64,000 nt of DNA from assembly GCF_029626025.1 (NCBI RefSeq), contig NZ_JARUBF010000001.1:4806001-4870000 (forward strand). Direction: 5' to 3'. The stretch's first letter is position 1. Each line of letters begins with the position of its first letter. The notes beneath the pieces were generated by a model that worked only from the letters and a program-made list of their open reading frames with translations, did not search any database and was not told the DNA's origin. The stretch comes from Solwaraspora sp. WMMD406 (GTDB lineage Bacteria > Actinomycetota > Actinomycetes > Mycobacteriales > Micromonosporaceae). This document shows positions 53,039 through 62,519 of the stretch, piece after piece. The position numbers were made by a program, and so were the translations under genes.

Positions 53039-54226
53039 TCAGTCGAGCAGCTCAGTCACGGTACCGGCGGCCACCGTACGGCCGCCCTCCCGGACCGCGA
53101 AGCCGAGCCCGACGTCCATCGCGACCGGCCTACCGAGCTCCACCGTCAGGTCGATGGTGTCGCCGGGCATCGCCATCGTCCGGTCGCCCAGGTCCACCGA
53201 CCCGACCACATCCGTGGTACGGAAGTAGAACTGCGGCCGGTAGTTGGCGAAGAACGGCGTGTGCCGCCCACCCTCGGCGGTGGTCAGCACGTACAGCCGG
53301 GCGGCGAACCGCTGATGCGGCGTGACACTGCCCGGCAGCGCCACCACCTGGCCCCGCTGCACCTGGTCACGCTTGACCCCGCGCAGCAGGACGGCGGCGT
53401 TGTCGCCGGCCTCGGCCGTGTCCAGCGACTTGCCGAACGTCTCCAACCCGGTCGCCACGGTCGACAGGGTCGGACCCAGTCCGACCACCTCCACCTGGTC
53501 ACCCAGCCGCAACGTGCCGCGCTCGACCGCGCCGGTCACCACCGTCCCCCGGCCGGAGATGGTCAGCACGTTCTCGATCGGCATCAGGAACGGCTCGCCG
53601 AGCTCGCGCGGCGGCACCGGAACGTACCGGTCGACGGCGTCGAGCAGCTCCACGATGGACCCGACCCAGCGCGGGTCACCCTCGAGCGCCCGCAGCGCCG
53701 ACACCCGGACGACCGGAAGCTCGTCGCCGGGGAACCCGTACTCGGTGACCAGCTCACGGACCTCCAACTCGACCAGGTCGAGCAGGTCCGGGTCGTCGAC
53801 CGCGTCCGCCTTGTTCATCGCCACCACCAGGTACGGCACCCCGACCCGCTTGGCGAGCAGCACGTGCTCGCGGGTCTGCGGCATCGCGCCGTCGAGCGCC
53901 GACACCACCAGGATCGCCCCGTCGACCTGGGCCGCACCGGTGATCATGTTCTTGACGAAGTCGGCGTGACCGGGCATGTCCACGTGGGCGTAGTGCCGGG
54001 TCGCGGTCTCGTACTCGACGTGCGAGATGTTGATGGTGATGCCCCGCGCCACCTCCTCCGGTGCCCGGTCGATCCCGTCGAAGGAGACGAACCGGTTGAC
54101 GGCGGGGTCGCGGTCGGCGAGGACCTTGGTGATCGCGGCGGTCAGGGTCGTCTTGCCGTGGTCGACGTGACCCATCGTGCCGATGTTGAGGTGCGGCTTC
54201 GCCCGCACGAACTGACTCTTGGCCAT
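53039..54226 (-). CDS. tuf: elongation factor Tu, second (tuf3-like) copy without cysteine
   Basis: 395 residues from ATG 54226. All GTPase motifs are intact: GHVDHGKT (19-26), RGITINI, the G3 motif as DMPGHAD (usual DCPGHAD), the G4 motif as MNKAD (usual NKCD) and SALRAL. Domains 2 and 3 are complete ([30 protein letters not shown]). The whole chain has no cysteine. It stands alone, not in the str operon with fusA and rpsL, like the divergent tuf3 of streptomycetes. Delivers aminoacyl-tRNA; possibly used under stress or antibiotic exposure. Confidence 0.95.
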
Positions 54227-54351
54227 GATGCTGACGCTCCAGATCGGAGACGAACTGGCGGACGACGAACGCGGGCGGGTGCCATACCGCCGCGTCAGAA
54301 CCACTCTTGACGGCGCGCCTGTGGAACGGGCAGCGCCGGAGAGACCGGGCC

Positions 54352-56050: not shown

Positions 56051-57079
56051 ATGAACGTCGCGTCGCCACCGGGACCGCCCACCCCAAGGATCGGAATCAC
56101 CGGAATCGGTGCCAGCCTGCCCGACCGGGTCCTCGACACCAGCGAACTGCAGGACCGGATCGCCCGCACCAGCGCGATCACGCTACCCGGCGGACTGTTC
56201 GCGAGAATGACCGGAATCAGCCACCGCAGGGTCGCGCGCGACGACGAGTACGCCTCGACCCTGGCGGTCCGGGCGGCCCGGCAGGCGCTGACCGCCGCCG
56301 ACCGGCGACCCGACGAGGTCGACCTGCTGCTGTTCGCCTCCGCCAGCCGCGACCTGGTGGAACCCGCCACCGCGCACATCGTGCAGGCCGAACTCGGCGG
56401 CCGGGCCCACGCCCTCGACGTCACGAACGCCTGCAACAGCTTCCTCAACGGCATCGACCTGGCCCGCTCGGCGATCCTCGCCGGCCGCGCCACCCGGGCG
56501 CTGGTGGTCACCGGAGAGACCCCGACCAGGGTGATGCGGCCCACGCTGACCGGTCTGGCCCAGGCCCGCACCGCCTTCGCCGGCTACACGTTCGGCGACG
56601 GCGGGGCGGCGGTCCTGGTCGAGCCGGTCGACCGGGGCGGGATCGTCGACGTCGACACCGAGACCCGTTCCGAACACTGGTCGGTGGGCGGCATCTTCGG
56701 CGGCGGTTCCCGGCACCCGCGCGGGGACGAACACACCTACTTCCACGGCGACGGACACTCCCTGCGCTCGGTGTTCGAGCAGGTCGGCACCGCCATCCTG
56801 GACCGGGTACGGCACCGGACCGGCTGGGACTGGGCCGACTACGAGCGGGTGCTGGTGCACCAGGTCAGCCTTCCTTATCTGGAACGGTTCATCGAGATCA
56901 CCGGGGTACCGAAGGACAAGCTGGAGGTCACCGTCGACGAGTTGGGCAACCTGGCCAGCGCCACGCTCGGTGTGCAGCTGGCCCGGGTCGACGCCGGGCT
57001 GCGCACCGGGGACCGGGTCCTGGCGATCGGCCTCGGCGGCGGGATCAGTGTGATGACGATGGTGTGGGAGAAGTCGTGA
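56051..57079 (+). CDS. 3-oxoacyl-ACP synthase III / OleA-like condensing enzyme
   Basis: 342 residues. Thiolase-fold condensing enzyme with the full triad: Cys about 128 in LDVTNACNSFLNGI, His in RVLVHQVSLPYLERF and Asn in DELGNLASATLGVQL. ETPTRVMRP and FGDGGAAVLVEP are also typical. The group includes KAS III enzymes outside fatty-acid operons and the OleA type, which joins two acyl-CoAs. First gene of a five-gene run in which every junction overlaps. No fatty-acid synthesis genes lie nearby, so a specialised role is likely. Confidence 0.9.
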   Translation: MNVASPPGPPTPRIGITGIGASLPDRVLDTSELQDRIARTSAITLPGGLFARMTGISHRRVARDDEYASTLAVRAARQALTAADRRPDEVDLLLFASASRDLVEPATAHIVQAELGGRAHALDVTNACNSFLNGIDLARSAILAGRATRALVVTGETPTRVMRPTLTGLAQARTAFAGYTFGDGGAAVLVEPVDRGGIVDVDTETRSEHWSVGGIFGGGSRHPRGDEHTYFHGDGHSLRSVFEQVGTAILDRVRHRTGWDWADYERVLVHQVSLPYLERFIEITGVPKDKLEVTVDELGNLASATLGVQLARVDAGLRTGDRVLAIGLGGGISVMTMVWEKS

Positions 57080-57888
57080 CCCGGGCCTTCGAGCAGGACC
57101 GTACGGTGGCCCCGGCCCCGGCCCCGGCCCCGGCCCCGACGCCGGACCCGGGCGGGCCGCTGTGGGTCGTGGTGCCGGCCTACCAGGAGCAGGCCCGCGT
57201 CGGCGCGACCCTGGCCGCTCTCGCCGCCCAGGACGATCGGGACTTCACCCTGGTCGTGGTCGACAACGGATCCACCGACGACACCGCCGGCGTCGTGAAG
57301 CGTTTCGCCGCCGGAGCGCCGTTCCCCGTCGTGCTGCTGCGCGAACCGCAGAAGGGCGTCGGAGCGGCGGTCGACACCGGCTTCCGGTACGCCATCGCGC
57401 ACGGGGCGCGGCTGCTGGCCCGCACCGACGCCGACTGCCTGCCCCGGCCGGGGTGGGTGGCAGCCGCGCGATCGGGGCTGACCGCCGGTTCCGGCATGGT
57501 CTGCGGGGCGATCCGCGCCCGCCGCGACGAACTCGGCCCGGCCGGCCGGGCCGGGTTCCGGCTCCTGGTGGCGCTCGCCGCCGCGTTCGGACGCCTACGG
57601 CCGGCCCACCGCGACCGGGGCTACCTGGCGCCGTACCGGATGCACGCCGGCAACAACATGGCGATCACCGCCGAGCTTTACCAGGCCTGCGGCGGCATGC
57701 CCCGCATACCGTCGCCGACCGACCGGACGTTTCTCAACCGGGTACGCCGTACCAGCCCGGCGATCTCCCACCGGCGGGACATGGTGGTGGAGAACTCGCT
57801 CCGCCGGCTGCGGGCGTACGGCGTGCTGCGGACGGCGTCCTGGTATCTGGGTCGCGGCAGCGGCCCGATGAGCCCGGATCCCCGCTGA
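57076..57888 (+). CDS. GT2-family glycosyltransferase
   Basis: 270 residues; GTG 57076 overlaps the previous stop (GTGA). After an Ala-Pro repeat leader (about 14-25) comes a GT-A fold: LWVVVPAYQEQARVGATLAALAAQD, VVDNGSTDDTAGVVK and the DxD-like RTDADCLPRPGW. No C-terminal membrane helix. It may transfer a sugar to the lipid made by its neighbours, or belong to the polyprenyl-phosphate type; the acceptor is unknown. The next gene starts inside its stop (TGATG). Confidence 0.87.
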   Translation: MTRAFEQDRTVAPAPAPAPAPTPDPGGPLWVVVPAYQEQARVGATLAALAAQDDRDFTLVVVDNGSTDDTAGVVKRFAAGAPFPVVLLREPQKGVGAAVDTGFRYAIAHGARLLARTDADCLPRPGWVAAARSGLTAGSGMVCGAIRARRDELGPAGRAGFRLLVALAAAFGRLRPAHRDRGYLAPYRMHAGNNMAITAELYQACGGMPRIPSPTDRTFLNRVRRTSPAISHRRDMVVENSLRRLRAYGVLRTASWYLGRGSGPMSPDPR

Positions 57889-59549
57889 TGCTCGATCGAC
57901 TCGATGCCACGCTGCGCGCCCACCGGCACCGGCCGGCGGTGCTGACCGCCGCCCCGCTCACCGGCCGCCCCCGGGTCCGGGCCACCGCCGGCGACCTCGC
58001 CGACCTCACCGACGGCTACGCCGCCGCGTTGCACCGGCAGGGGCTGGCCGCCGGGGACACCCTGGGCGTGGCCGTGCGGCCCGGACCTCGGTCGCTGGCG
58101 GTGCTGCTGGCCGCGTACCGCCTGGGAATCCGGGTCACGGTGCTGGATCCGACCGCCGGCCCGGACGTGCTCACGGCCCGGTTGGCCCTGGCCCGGCCGG
58201 CGCTGGTGCTGGCCGACGCGGCGGCCCAGGCGGTCGCCGGTTGGGCGGGCCGGCTGGCCCGCCGCGCGCACCTGGCGCTACCGGAGCTGACCCGGATCGG
58301 GCCGGTGTTGACGGTCGGTCGGCGGGTTCCGGGATGTGCGCCGAGCCTACCGGCGGGGCGTGGCCCGCTCCCGGTGGCTTTCGACGGTGACGGCGACGCG
58401 GTGATCATCTTCACCTCGGGTACCACCAACCAGCCCCGGGCGGTGGTCCACACTCGGGCCGGCCTGGCCGCCGGGTTGCGGGCCGTCACCGAGCTGGTCG
58501 GGCCCCGTCCGCAGGTGCCGGTGCTCGGCGGGATGTTCTTCGTGCTGGTGCCGGCGCTGGCCAGTGGTGCCCCGGTCGCGCTGCCGGCACGGTCGTCCCC
58601 GACGCTGGCCCGGCAGATCGCCCGGCTGCGCCCACAGGCCAGTTATCTGACCCCACCCCAGTTGCGGTCGCTGCTGGCCTGCTCCCCCCGGCTGCACGGG
58701 CGGTTCTTCAGCGGTTCGGCACCGGTCAGCGCCGGGTTGTTGACGCGGGTCAAACGGGCCGGCGCGGACCGCGCCTACGGGGTGTACGCGCTCACCGAAC
58801 TGTTCCCGGCGGCGGCGGTGGAGGAAGCGGAGAAGGCTGCCTTCGCTGGTCCCGGTGACCTGGTCGGGTCCCCGCTGCCCGGCGTACAGGTCAGGATCGA
58901 CCACGACCGTGACCACGACCCCGGAAACGACCACGACCGTGACCACGACGGCGGCCCCGGAAACGGCGACCCCGGCGACAACGGTCATGTCCTGTTGGCC
59001 GGGCCGGGACAGGCCGACCGCTACCTCGGCGAGCGGCCGCACGACTGGGTCGCGACCGGCGACGTGGGCCGGCTCGACGGTGGACGGCTGGTGCTCGCCG
59101 GCCGCAGCAAGGACATGGTGCTGCGGGGCGCGGAGAACATCTACCCCGGACTGTACGAACCCACGCTGCACGTGCCGGGGGTGGCGCTGGCGGTCCTGGT
59201 CGGGGTGCCGGCCGGCGACGGCGACGAGCGGCTGGTGGCCCTGGTCGAAACCGAACCCGGGGCGGATCGGGCCCACGTCCGGGCAGCGCTGCGCCCGGCC
59301 CTGGAGCGGATGGGATCGGCGCGCCCCGACCGGGTGCTGTTCACCAGCGTTCCGCTGGCCGGCCGGTCACGCAAACCGGACCGCGTCGCCGCGGCCGCCG
59401 CCGCAGCGGCCGTCACGACGACCAACGGCGACAGTGCGGACCGTACGGGCGGCACGGACGGCACGGACCCGGGCGGCACGGACCCGGGCGGCACGGACCG
59501 TACGGGCGGTCCTGGCAGACGGGAGCGGCGTCGTGTCGAGCGTGGTTGA
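57888..59549 (+). CDS. acyl-AMP ligase (ANL superfamily; OleC-like position)
   Basis: 553 residues. Adenylation motifs: IIFTSGTTNQPRAVVHT (P-loop), YGVYALTELFP, ATGDVGRLDGGRLVLAGRSKDM and the catalytic Lys in AGRSRKPDR. The N-terminal part is shorter than in acyl-CoA synthetases. A His/Asp/Gly-rich insert (DHDRDHDPGNDHDRD) lies near 340-365, and the C-terminus ends in GGTDPGGTD repeats. In Ole/Nlt pathways the enzyme at this place turns a beta-hydroxy acid into a beta-lactone; here it could also make an acyl-CoA or acyl-adenylate. Confidence 0.85.
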   Translation: MLDRLDATLRAHRHRPAVLTAAPLTGRPRVRATAGDLADLTDGYAAALHRQGLAAGDTLGVAVRPGPRSLAVLLAAYRLGIRVTVLDPTAGPDVLTARLALARPALVLADAAAQAVAGWAGRLARRAHLALPELTRIGPVLTVGRRVPGCAPSLPAGRGPLPVAFDGDGDAVIIFTSGTTNQPRAVVHTRAGLAAGLRAVTELVGPRPQVPVLGGMFFVLVPALASGAPVALPARSSPTLARQIARLRPQASYLTPPQLRSLLACSPRLHGRFFSGSAPVSAGLLTRVKRAGADRAYGVYALTELFPAAAVEEAEKAAFAGPGDLVGSPLPGVQVRIDHDRDHDPGNDHDRDHDGGPGNGDPGDNGHVLLAGPGQADRYLGERPHDWVATGDVGRLDGGRLVLAGRSKDMVLRGAENIYPGLYEPTLHVPGVALAVLVGVPAGDGDERLVALVETEPGADRAHVRAALRPALERMGSARPDRVLFTSVPLAGRSRKPDRVAAAAAAAAVTTTNGDSADRTGGTDGTDPGGTDPGGTDRTGGPGRRERRRVERG

Positions 59550-60660
59550 CCGCTGGCGACGCGGCCGGGGCCGCCGCCGGGACCGGCAGGTCTACCTGGC
59601 CACCCATCCGGTGTTGTTCGCGGCGATGGCGATGACCAGGCGGGCACCGGTACTCCGGATCGGCCGGACGGTCGTGGTACACGGTGCCGAGGCCTACACC
59701 GACGCGCTGCGGCGGGTGCCGTTGGACCGGCTGGCCGACGGCACCACCGCCGGCGCGGCCCATCGGGCCATCAGCGGCGACGCGGAAGGCTTCTTCTTCG
59801 ACCAGGACGGCCGTGGCCACCGGCAGGATCGTCGAACAGCGGCCACCGTGTTCAGCAGCGACGGAGTGGCCCGACTTCGCCCGGTGTGGCAGGAAGTCCT
59901 CCGCCGGCGGCTGGTGCCGCTGTCCGACGGAGGCGAGGTGGACATCGTCGATGTGGTCGCCGAGCTGACCGGTGCCAGCACCGTCGCGCTGCTCGGCGTA
60001 CCGGCCGACCCACGGGCGCTGGCCGACGCCGCGCGATCGGCCGCCGCCGCCGCGACGCGGGGACATCTACCCGGGCTGCGGTGGCCGAGCCGGACCCGAC
60101 GCGACCACGCGGCGACAGCCGTCGCGGCGGCGCGGCTGGCCACGCTGCTCGGCCTGCCACCGGAGCGGAGCGCCCGCGCGAGCATGCTGGCGGTGGCGTC
60201 GGTGAACACCACGTTGGCCGCGATCCCCCGGGCGGTGGCCTGGTGCGCCGACGACGGGCTGTGGAGCGTGGCCGACGATCCCCGGCGACGCCCGGCTCTG
60301 GTCACCGAACTGTTGCGGGTGACCGCCCCCAGCCCGGTGCTGCCCAGGTTCGCGGCGGCGGCCGGCCAGGTGGGGCACGTCGCGGTCCAGCCCGGTGACC
60401 GGTTGCTGCTGGTCGCCCGGCATGCCAGCCGAGCCGGGCGGCCCGACCCCGATCCGGCGGCACCGGTGGCGGCCGGGATCGCCCAGCTGGTCTTCGGCAC
60501 CGGCCCGCACGCCTGTCCCGGGGCGCGGATGGCCCGGGCGCAACTCGACGACGTGCTCGCGGCACTCGCCCCGTACCGGCCGGTGGTGACCGGAGCCCGG
60601 GTCGATCGCCGTGCGGCCCTGCCCGGCTGGGCGCGGCTGCGGATCCGGGCCGGTCGGTGA
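59533..60660 (+). CDS. cytochrome P450
   Basis: 375 residues from GTG 59533 (GGGAG upstream), overlapping the ligase by 17 bases. The heme ligand loop FGTGPHACPGARMARAQL and the ExxR motif (TELLR) are intact. The I-helix reads ASVNTTLAAIPR, keeping the Thr but without the usual acidic neighbour, so the proton relay may differ. At 375 residues it is short, missing part of the N-terminal helices. It probably hydroxylates or desaturates the product of this operon. Confidence 0.9.
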   Translation: MSSVVDRWRRGRGRRRDRQVYLATHPVLFAAMAMTRRAPVLRIGRTVVVHGAEAYTDALRRVPLDRLADGTTAGAAHRAISGDAEGFFFDQDGRGHRQDRRTAATVFSSDGVARLRPVWQEVLRRRLVPLSDGGEVDIVDVVAELTGASTVALLGVPADPRALADAARSAAAAATRGHLPGLRWPSRTRRDHAATAVAAARLATLLGLPPERSARASMLAVASVNTTLAAIPRAVAWCADDGLWSVADDPRRRPALVTELLRVTAPSPVLPRFAAAAGQVGHVAVQPGDRLLLVARHASRAGRPDPDPAAPVAAGIAQLVFGTGPHACPGARMARAQLDDVLAALAPYRPVVTGARVDRRAALPGWARLRIRAGR

Positions 60661-61622
60661 CGATGCCGGACCTGTCCGGCCTGCGGGTCGCGGTGACCGG
60701 TGCCAGCGGGTTCTGCGGTGGTGTGGTGGCCCGGGCCGCGATCGCCGCCGGGGCCGACGTGACCTGCCTCGGCCGCCGCCCGGGACCGGCGGGACGCCAG
60801 GTGTACTGGGACGCGACCCGGCAGCAACCGGATCTGACCGGCGTCGACGTGGTCGTCCACCTCGCGGCGGCGGTCGGCGATCCTCGGCCGGGCGCCGCCG
60901 CCGAGGCCGCGTATCACGCGGTCAACACGGCCGGTACGGCGCGACTTCTGCACGCTGCGGCCGATCGGCGGGTGGTCTGGGTGAGCAGCGCCAGCGTCTA
61001 CCGACCGGACGGGACCGGCCAGCCGCTGCGCGAGGACCATCCGGTGGACGGTCAGCGAACGGCGTACGGGCGCAGCAAGGCCGCCGGTGAGCGACTGGCG
61101 CTGGCCGCCGGCGCGGTCGTGCTCAGGCCACGTGCCGTGTACGGCGCGGGTGACCCGCATCTGCTGCCGCGCCTGACGGCGGCGGTACGCGGACGGTGGA
61201 TACCCCTGCCCGGTGGCGACGTCACGCTGAGCATGACCGCCGTGGAGAACCTGGCGGACGCCTGCCTCGCCGCGCTGCGGTGGCCGGCGGGCCCGTACAA
61301 CGTGACGGACGCGACCGCGTACTCCCGCGACGAGGTGGTCGCCCGGGTGCTCGCCGCTGTCGGCCGGCCGGCTCGGCCGCTGCGGATACCGGTGCCGGTG
61401 GCGCTCGGGGCGGCCGGGGTGGCTACCGCAGTGGCCCGGCTGCGGCCGGCCGGCACGCCACGGCTGACCCGGTACGCCGTGGAACAACTGGTGTTCGGCA
61501 CGGTGCTCGACATCGGACGGGCGACCGGCCAGGGCTGGCGGCCGCGGCGCGGGTTGTCGGACTTCCTGGCCGAGCTGAGCGGACAATCGTCGACCGCACC
61601 GGTGACAGCACCGCCCATCTGA
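60657..61622 (+). CDS. NAD-dependent epimerase / 3-beta-HSD-like reductase (OleD/NltD-like position)
   Basis: 321 residues; GTG 60657 overlaps the P450 stop (ATG 60663 possible). Extended-SDR motifs: LRVAVTGASGFCGGVVARAA, VVVHLAAAVGD, catalytic Ser/Tyr/Lys in VSSASVYRPD and AYGRSKAAGERLAL, then RPRAVYGAGD. The C-terminus VEQLVFGTVLDIGRATGQGWRPR is that of 3-beta-hydroxysteroid dehydrogenase/OleD relatives, which reduce a beta-keto acid to the beta-hydroxy acid. Closes the operon. Confidence 0.9.
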   Translation: MTMPDLSGLRVAVTGASGFCGGVVARAAIAAGADVTCLGRRPGPAGRQVYWDATRQQPDLTGVDVVVHLAAAVGDPRPGAAAEAAYHAVNTAGTARLLHAAADRRVVWVSSASVYRPDGTGQPLREDHPVDGQRTAYGRSKAAGERLALAAGAVVLRPRAVYGAGDPHLLPRLTAAVRGRWIPLPGGDVTLSMTAVENLADACLAALRWPAGPYNVTDATAYSRDEVVARVLAAVGRPARPLRIPVPVALGAAGVATAVARLRPAGTPRLTRYAVEQLVFGTVLDIGRATGQGWRPRRGLSDFLAELSGQSSTAPVTAPPI

Positions 61623-61650: not shown

Positions 61651-61667
61651 AGCAAGATGGAGGCGTG

Positions 61668-62519
61668 GTGAGCCGACGATGGGTGGCCGCTGCGGCGGCG
61701 GTCGCGGCATTGGTCGCGTTGGCCTGCGAGGCCGAGCCGGAGCCGGGCCAGCCGGTGTCGCCGACACCGCCCAGCGGCGACCTGCCGTCGTCGATGGCGG
61801 CGCTGGGCGACTCGATCACGGCTGGCTACGGCTCCTGCGTGGTGTTGACCTCGTGCCGCCGCAACTCGTGGTCGACCGGCGACGGGTTCCGGGTCGACAG
61901 TCACTACGAACGGATCCGCCAAGCGAATCCGGCCATGCGCGGTCAGGCCCACAACTTCGCCGTACCGGGTGCCCGCGCCGCCGCCCTGGCCGACCAGGCC
62001 GCGTCGGCGGTCGACGTCGGCGCCCAGTACGTGACGATTCTCGTCGGCGCCAACGACGTCTGCCGTCCAGACGTGCGCGAGATGACCTCGGTGACGGCGT
62101 TTCGCGCCGAGATCGATCGGACCCTCGACGTCCTGCGGGCCGGGTTGCCGCAGGCAGAGGTCCTGGTGGTGAGCATCCCGGATCTGTATCACCTCTGGCA
62201 GATCGGTCACGGCGAGGAGCGGGTGGTACGTGCCTGGAACCGGGGCGTCTGCCCGTCCATGTTGGCCGATCCGACCTCGACCGACGAGTCCGACGTCCAG
62301 CGACGCGCCCTGGTACGGGACCGGGTGGAAGCATTCAACACGCAACTGGCCGAAGCGTGCCGCGCGTACGGCGACCGGTGCCGATTCGACGGCGGCGCGG
62401 TCCACCGGGTCGAGTTCGCTCTCGACACGCTGAACCAGATCGACTATTTCCATCCGGACGCCGATGGTCAGGACATCCTGGCCGACGTGACGTACGCCGC
62501 CAGCGGCCTGGCCAACTGA
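61668..62519 (+). CDS. secreted SGNH/GDSL esterase-lipase
   Basis: 283 residues from the second of two adjacent GTG codons (61665 or 61668; GGAGG at 61659). N-terminal signal region ending VALVALACEAEP, a possible but imperfect lipobox. SGNH blocks: MAALGDSITAGYG (nucleophile Ser), NFAVPGARA, TILVGANDVC and DYFHPDADGQ (catalytic Asp/His). Extra cysteines fit an exported, disulphide-bonded enzyme. 45 bases after the five-gene operon, so it may or may not belong to it. Confidence 0.92.
   Translation: MSRRWVAAAAAVAALVALACEAEPEPGQPVSPTPPSGDLPSSMAALGDSITAGYGSCVVLTSCRRNSWSTGDGFRVDSHYERIRQANPAMRGQAHNFAVPGARAAALADQAASAVDVGAQYVTILVGANDVCRPDVREMTSVTAFRAEIDRTLDVLRAGLPQAEVLVVSIPDLYHLWQIGHGEERVVRAWNRGVCPSMLADPTSTDESDVQRRALVRDRVEAFNTQLAEACRAYGDRCRFDGGAVHRVEFALDTLNQIDYFHPDADGQDILADVTYAASGLAN

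Follow-up and report, generated by a model that had tools for sequence, protein, structure and literature searches.

Is the run of five overlapping genes found in Solwaraspora sp. WMMD406 an undescribed lipid or beta-lactone pathway, and what might it make? The genes occupy positions 56051 to 61622, all on the + strand, of the 64,000-nucleotide stretch of DNA analyzed here (the window). Pfam and NCBIfam assignment of the five proteins, for which the ligase and the P450 were queried with their in-frame upstream extensions, bore out the families and the end-to-end overlaps that had been read from the sequence alone. A KAS III/OleA-like condensing enzyme (P0001, 56051..57079, 342 amino acids, with Cys128, His270, Asn300, and Glu104) is followed by a GT2 glycosyltransferase with an RTDAD motif (P0002, 57076..57888, alternative start 57064), an ANL adenylating enzyme from a clade beside OleC (P0006, 57888..59549, 553 amino acids), a short cytochrome P450 with ELLR, FGxGxHxCPG, and an I-helix AxVNTT (P0007, 59542..60660, alternative start 59533), and an extended SDR from a clade beside OleD (P0005, 60657..61622, 321 amino acids). 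The overlaps measure 4 or 16 bp between KAS and glycosyltransferase (GTG at 57076 or 57064), 1 bp between glycosyltransferase and ligase (ATG at 57888), 8 or 17 bp between ligase and P450 (GTG at 59542 or 59533), and 4 bp between P450 and SDR (GTG at 60657). Since the open reading frame ends at two loci of the same genus (L045 and L046) give 4 bp for the first junction and 8 bp for the third, and L045 also gives 4 bp for the last, starts 57076 and 59542 are favored. Short tandem repeats lie within the ligase gene at 58898-58949 and 59455-59499; the former falls in a His/Asp-rich stretch (ligase residues ~340-363) that is unaligned in 12 matched orthologues.

The first half of the question has a clear answer. 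An OleA-glycosyltransferase-OleC-P450-OleD cluster from Actinoplanes atraurantiacus, with a glycosylated, hydroxylated beta-lactone as its predicted product, has been in print since 2020 (mBio 2020, PMC7064751). The operon is thus not undescribed, and the suggestion of a hydroxylated, glycosylated lipid or lactone, although reasonable, had been anticipated. The counterpart locus in P. atraurantiacus CGMCC 4.6857 (L110) has the gene order of the window operon, with protein identities of 70% (KAS), 73% (glycosyltransferase), 63% (ligase), 47% (P450), and 60% (SDR). Its KAS is the sole match above 100 bits to the OleA model in that genome (161.9, the next being 87.6), in a search whose E-value was loose enough to give matches in 10 of 14 control genomes as well and in which all scores stayed below the cut-off. 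Judged by order and identity, the two clusters are orthologous, and the window operon is a further example of a published, uncharacterized cluster type. It differs in genomic setting: A. atraurantiacus was reported to lack oleB (PMC7064751), whereas the Solwaraspora host carries oleBC elsewhere. The operon is nonetheless not identical to a characterized cluster: in the open-access literature we found the gene set in that paper alone, and no reported product for either locus or for any other operon of this type.

Eight KAS relatives served as queries for a genome scan that gave 398 relatives, and the best 80 of these were examined as loci, gene order being counted over + strand matches from the KAS onward. 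All five genes stand in order at 72 of these 80 loci, and the remaining 8 run into a contig end. The complete loci comprise 32 with one glycosyltransferase and 40 with a second GT2 gene between ligase and P450, and the best 80 of the 398 include Actinoplanes, Paractinoplanes, Micromonospora, Virgisporangium, Streptomyces, and Kitasatospora. Because the five genes were also found together in all seven genomes of the genus searched, window included, we regard the operon as no chance assembly. At E<=1e-40, 56 of the 200 Micromonosporaceae genomes searched carry the P450, and at E<=1e-60 the KAS is present in 21 of 394 genomes from the class, the host being counted in both; the operon extends to Streptomyces and other families; this breadth, together with the lack of a reported product among the literature found, is what makes the operon matter. 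Variants of the arrangement exist. In genome G012, KAS and ligase directly overlap and no glycosyltransferase was found in the 15 kb examined, while a divergent lineage (L044, L168, L189-L193, and L195) has the order KAS-glycosyltransferase-P450-ligase-SDR. Loci L187 and L188 hold KAS, glycosyltransferase, and ligase only, and L194 holds KAS and P450, with an OleD-like SDR at greater distance. A scan of viral contigs for operon relatives gave five pattern matches and no relative.

The most informative variant is a natural swap in two Micromonosporaceae genomes (G166 and G252). Here a KAS (68% identical to that of the window) and a P450 (60-62%) are followed by an OleC-type ligase, an OleD-type SDR, and an NRPS-like protein of 1003-1022 amino acids with AMP-binding and PP-binding domains (L169 7067-15013 and L174 66-7956). 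In G252 the ligase scores 480.6 bits against the OleC model NF045786 and the OleD-type SDR 206.2 bits; between the two genomes, the ligases are 87%, the SDRs 85%, and the NRPS-like proteins 79% identical. No glycosyltransferase was found in the 15-16 kb examined. Nor was an operon-type ligase found in either genome (best match 27 bits), in a search that could miss distant copies, given that the genomes' own OleC genes (79 and 84 bits by tblastn, 28-29% identity) went unlisted, but not a close orthologue. These loci, an apparently new gene combination, suggest a shared hydroxylated core that is capped by either a sugar or an amino acid. From these two related genomes we infer that the operon ligase and SDR may be functionally equivalent to OleC and OleD, and glycosylation to amino-acid capping. 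The exchange of ligase, SDR, and glycosyltransferase for OleC, OleD, and NRPS types offers a direct route to testing the shared chemistry. The two loci may also be viewed as a possible lipstatin-like cluster; the lipstatin locus, too, has an NRPS-like gene. At a more distant locus (L171), a KAS 36% identical to that of the window lies beside OleC (637.6 bits) and OleD (414.6 bits). About 3 kb before this KAS-OleC-OleD set, on its upstream side, is an alpha/beta hydrolase (L171 4035-4985) that shares 38% identity with the OleB domain of the host, so the product of the locus may instead be an olefin.

Is the operon's condensing enzyme an OleA? The Cys/His/Asn triad and the Glu-Pro pair (RD-xx-EPATA) are present in 89 of 89 rows, window included, and Glu104 aligns with Glu117 of Xanthomonas campestris OleA, which is reported to be essential in that enzyme (PMC7064751). 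The Actinoplanes OleA is reported to turn over p-nitrophenyl hexanoate (PMC7064751), which also speaks for the Ole-type plan. Against PRK09258 (NF006720, cut-off 285 bits), however, the window KAS scores 175.6, compared with 458.7 for the host OleA; among matches to this model in 298 genomes of the order (E<=1e-40), those over the cut-off all reach at least 409 bits and the rest at most 180. In a tree of 49 rows, canonical OleA forms one clade (100/100), the operon KAS together with the two swapped relatives another (96/98), and three FabH rows stand apart (100/99), with a long-branch warning for L171 and the FabH rows; support is weak (81/53) for the branch that places the operon type with OleA rather than with two other KAS. 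Two rows labeled as operon KAS (L172 and L173) fell outside the operon clade, and their loci hold no other operon gene. The KAS thus forms a clade of its own beside OleA and distinct from FabH; of the expected kinship with OleA, the separation from FabH and the conserved Glu-Pro held, and the tie to OleA itself came out weak.

Alternatively, the KAS could be decarboxylative, using malonyl or a non-fatty starter in the manner of PqsD or FabH, so that the product would not be an Ole-type head-to-head lipid. Its best PDB match is PqsD by both sequence and fold, and the Actinoplanes OleA gave no Claisen product from C8-C16 acyl-CoAs, in a preparation that was scarce and precipitated (PMC7064751). 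We consider this reading quite unlikely: the alignment shows Asp-Pro in PqsD where all 89 operon-type rows have Glu-Pro, the three FabH rows are set apart in the tree, and the fold does not discriminate, because FabH, PqsD, and OleA score alike in Foldseek against the predicted structure (pLDDT 90).

The ligase raises a similar problem of placement. A first tree, constraining operon ligases and OleC as one clade, was rejected by the AU test (p 3e-8), because two ligases labeled as "other" (L019 and L025) nest with the operon ligases; both lie within the operon-ligase clade, with no other operon gene nearby. For a second tree (31 rows), these two were moved to the ligase group, some rows were dropped, and five Escherichia coli ANL enzymes were added. 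Operon ligases and OleC then grouped against 13 other ANL enzymes (98/94), a grouping chosen after the result of the first tree, with the operon ligases beside OleC and not inside it. Among 83 of 89 rows recovered, an odd P-loop, TSGTTxxPRA, is kept in 82/82, KDM in 83/83, and the A10 lysine in 82/82. At A8 and A10 the ligase has KDM..ENIYP and GRSRKPDR in place of the letters shared by six OleC rows (RHNSK-like at A10), which is the strongest sequence argument against naming it OleC. Its best NCBIfam model is PRK06187, and on the OleC model NF045786 (cut-off 900) it reaches 59.3 bits, the host OleBC, at 260.3, also falling below. The predicted relationship to OleC was therefore recovered against the ANL enzymes sampled but does not extend to the A8 and A10 motifs.

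These features leave room for an early-acting enzyme. If the ligase were an acyl-CoA or acyl-AMP ligase feeding the KAS, condensation, reduction, hydroxylation, and glycosylation would proceed as in the Ole-type scheme but no lactone would form, and the product would be an alpha-alkyl beta-hydroxy acid or ester bearing a sugar, to which mycolate-like logic provides a parallel. The A8 motif KDM...ENIYP is that of CoA ligases and is absent from the six OleC rows, and PRK06187 rather than OleC being the best model points the same way. Nevertheless, the ligase groups with OleC rather than with the 13 other ANL enzymes sampled, and in G166 and G252 an OleC-type enzyme takes its place, so that we hold this possibility to be doubtful, if by no means negligible.

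The remaining enzymes are less ambiguous in their motifs. The Tyr and Lys of YxxxK are kept in 81/81 SDR rows recovered out of 89. The best NCBIfam model of the SDR is that of OleD (NF042422, cut-off 580), with 86.8 bits, the host OleD (335.3) also lying below the cut-off, and in a tree of 21 rows OleD (94/93) and the operon SDR (98/94) form separate clades on a weak joint branch (88/73). The glycosyltransferase motif RTDAD is found in 88/88 rows out of 89, the absent row being a locus without the gene (L039). The P450, flagged as unusual and short, is indeed short (~372-375 amino acids), yet it is not unusual in its catalytic residues: ExxR and the heme Cys, as expected of a cytochrome P450, are kept in 82/82 rows recovered out of 89. 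Its top NCBIfam model is P450_rel_GT_act, at 38.8 bits and far under the cut-off of 343, which brings to mind non-catalytic P450-like partners of glycosyltransferases of the DesVIII/EryCII type. Such a role is most improbable here, not only given the conserved heme Cys and ExxR but also since the P450 persists in G012, G166, and G252, where the 15-16 kb examined yielded no glycosyltransferase.

How does the operon relate to known Ole systems? The host has a canonical oleA, an oleBC fusion, and oleD at another locus (L035 7619-12218; G000:C1:4575618-4580217), and on the three Ole models its OleA, OleC, and OleD score 458.7/260.3/335.3 bits versus 175.6/59.3/86.8 for the operon KAS, ligase, and SDR. 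The host is the only one of the seven genus genomes with an OleC match (E<=1e-40). Thus, the absence of OleB that had been noted applies to the operon and not to the genome. With canonical oleABCD or oleA-oleBC-oleD, the operon shares OleA-, OleC-, and OleD-like steps, the catalytic triad, and the equivalent of Glu117; it differs in having no OleB and an extra GT2 and P450, and in that each enzyme belongs to a separate clade. The lipstatin (Lst) and nocardiolactone (Nlt) loci are likewise OleACD-like without OleB, but they have two KAS III genes and the operon one, the genome's other KAS matches lying far away, and the operon has the glycosyltransferase and P450.

Taken together, gene content, orthology, motifs, tree positions, and natural swaps lead us, on balance, to favor a self-contained, widespread actinobacterial pathway built on the OleA/OleC/OleD plan from neighboring enzyme lineages, with a beta-lactone as the likeliest product predicted from the gene set. 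By homology, the KAS would carry out a non-decarboxylative condensation of two acyl thioesters with its own Cys and the Glu of the partner subunit, and the SDR would reduce the resulting 2-alkyl-3-keto acid. The P450 would hydroxylate an acyl chain, and the GT2 enzyme (one, often two, none in G012) would glycosylate the hydroxyl so made. The ligase would adenylate the 3-hydroxy acid, most likely closing the beta-lactone, and because the unit has no OleB, the ring would not be decarboxylated within the operon. The beta-lactone ring, present in lipstatin and salinosporamide, is a reactive group (PMC7064751). It is tempting to speculate further, although we rate this as somewhat less than an even prospect, that a second Ole-like trio runs parallel to, and apart from, the olefin-forming OleACD and leads to a family of hydroxylated products, either head-to-head lipids or beta-lactones. 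Modular capping of the hydroxyl would then use one or two sugars at most of the loci seen and, in G166 and G252, where ligase and SDR are of the OleC and OleD types, an amino acid added by the NRPS-like protein, while in G012 the hydroxyl would stay free.

Among the 40 largest families flanking 89 loci, no neighbor is common to all. Several are antisense open reading frames of the operon itself, and the widest others occur in at most 19 loci; one of these, a generic ABC-transporter ATPase, flanks the operon in 14 loci from both Streptomycetaceae and Micromonosporaceae. Directly downstream of the operon, a GDSL-like lipase/acylhydrolase (61665-62519, +) is present, as it also is at genus loci and at L043/L068. 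A second EF-Tu gene (53039-54304, -), 64% identical to the genome's other copy, lies near the operon at all seven genus loci.
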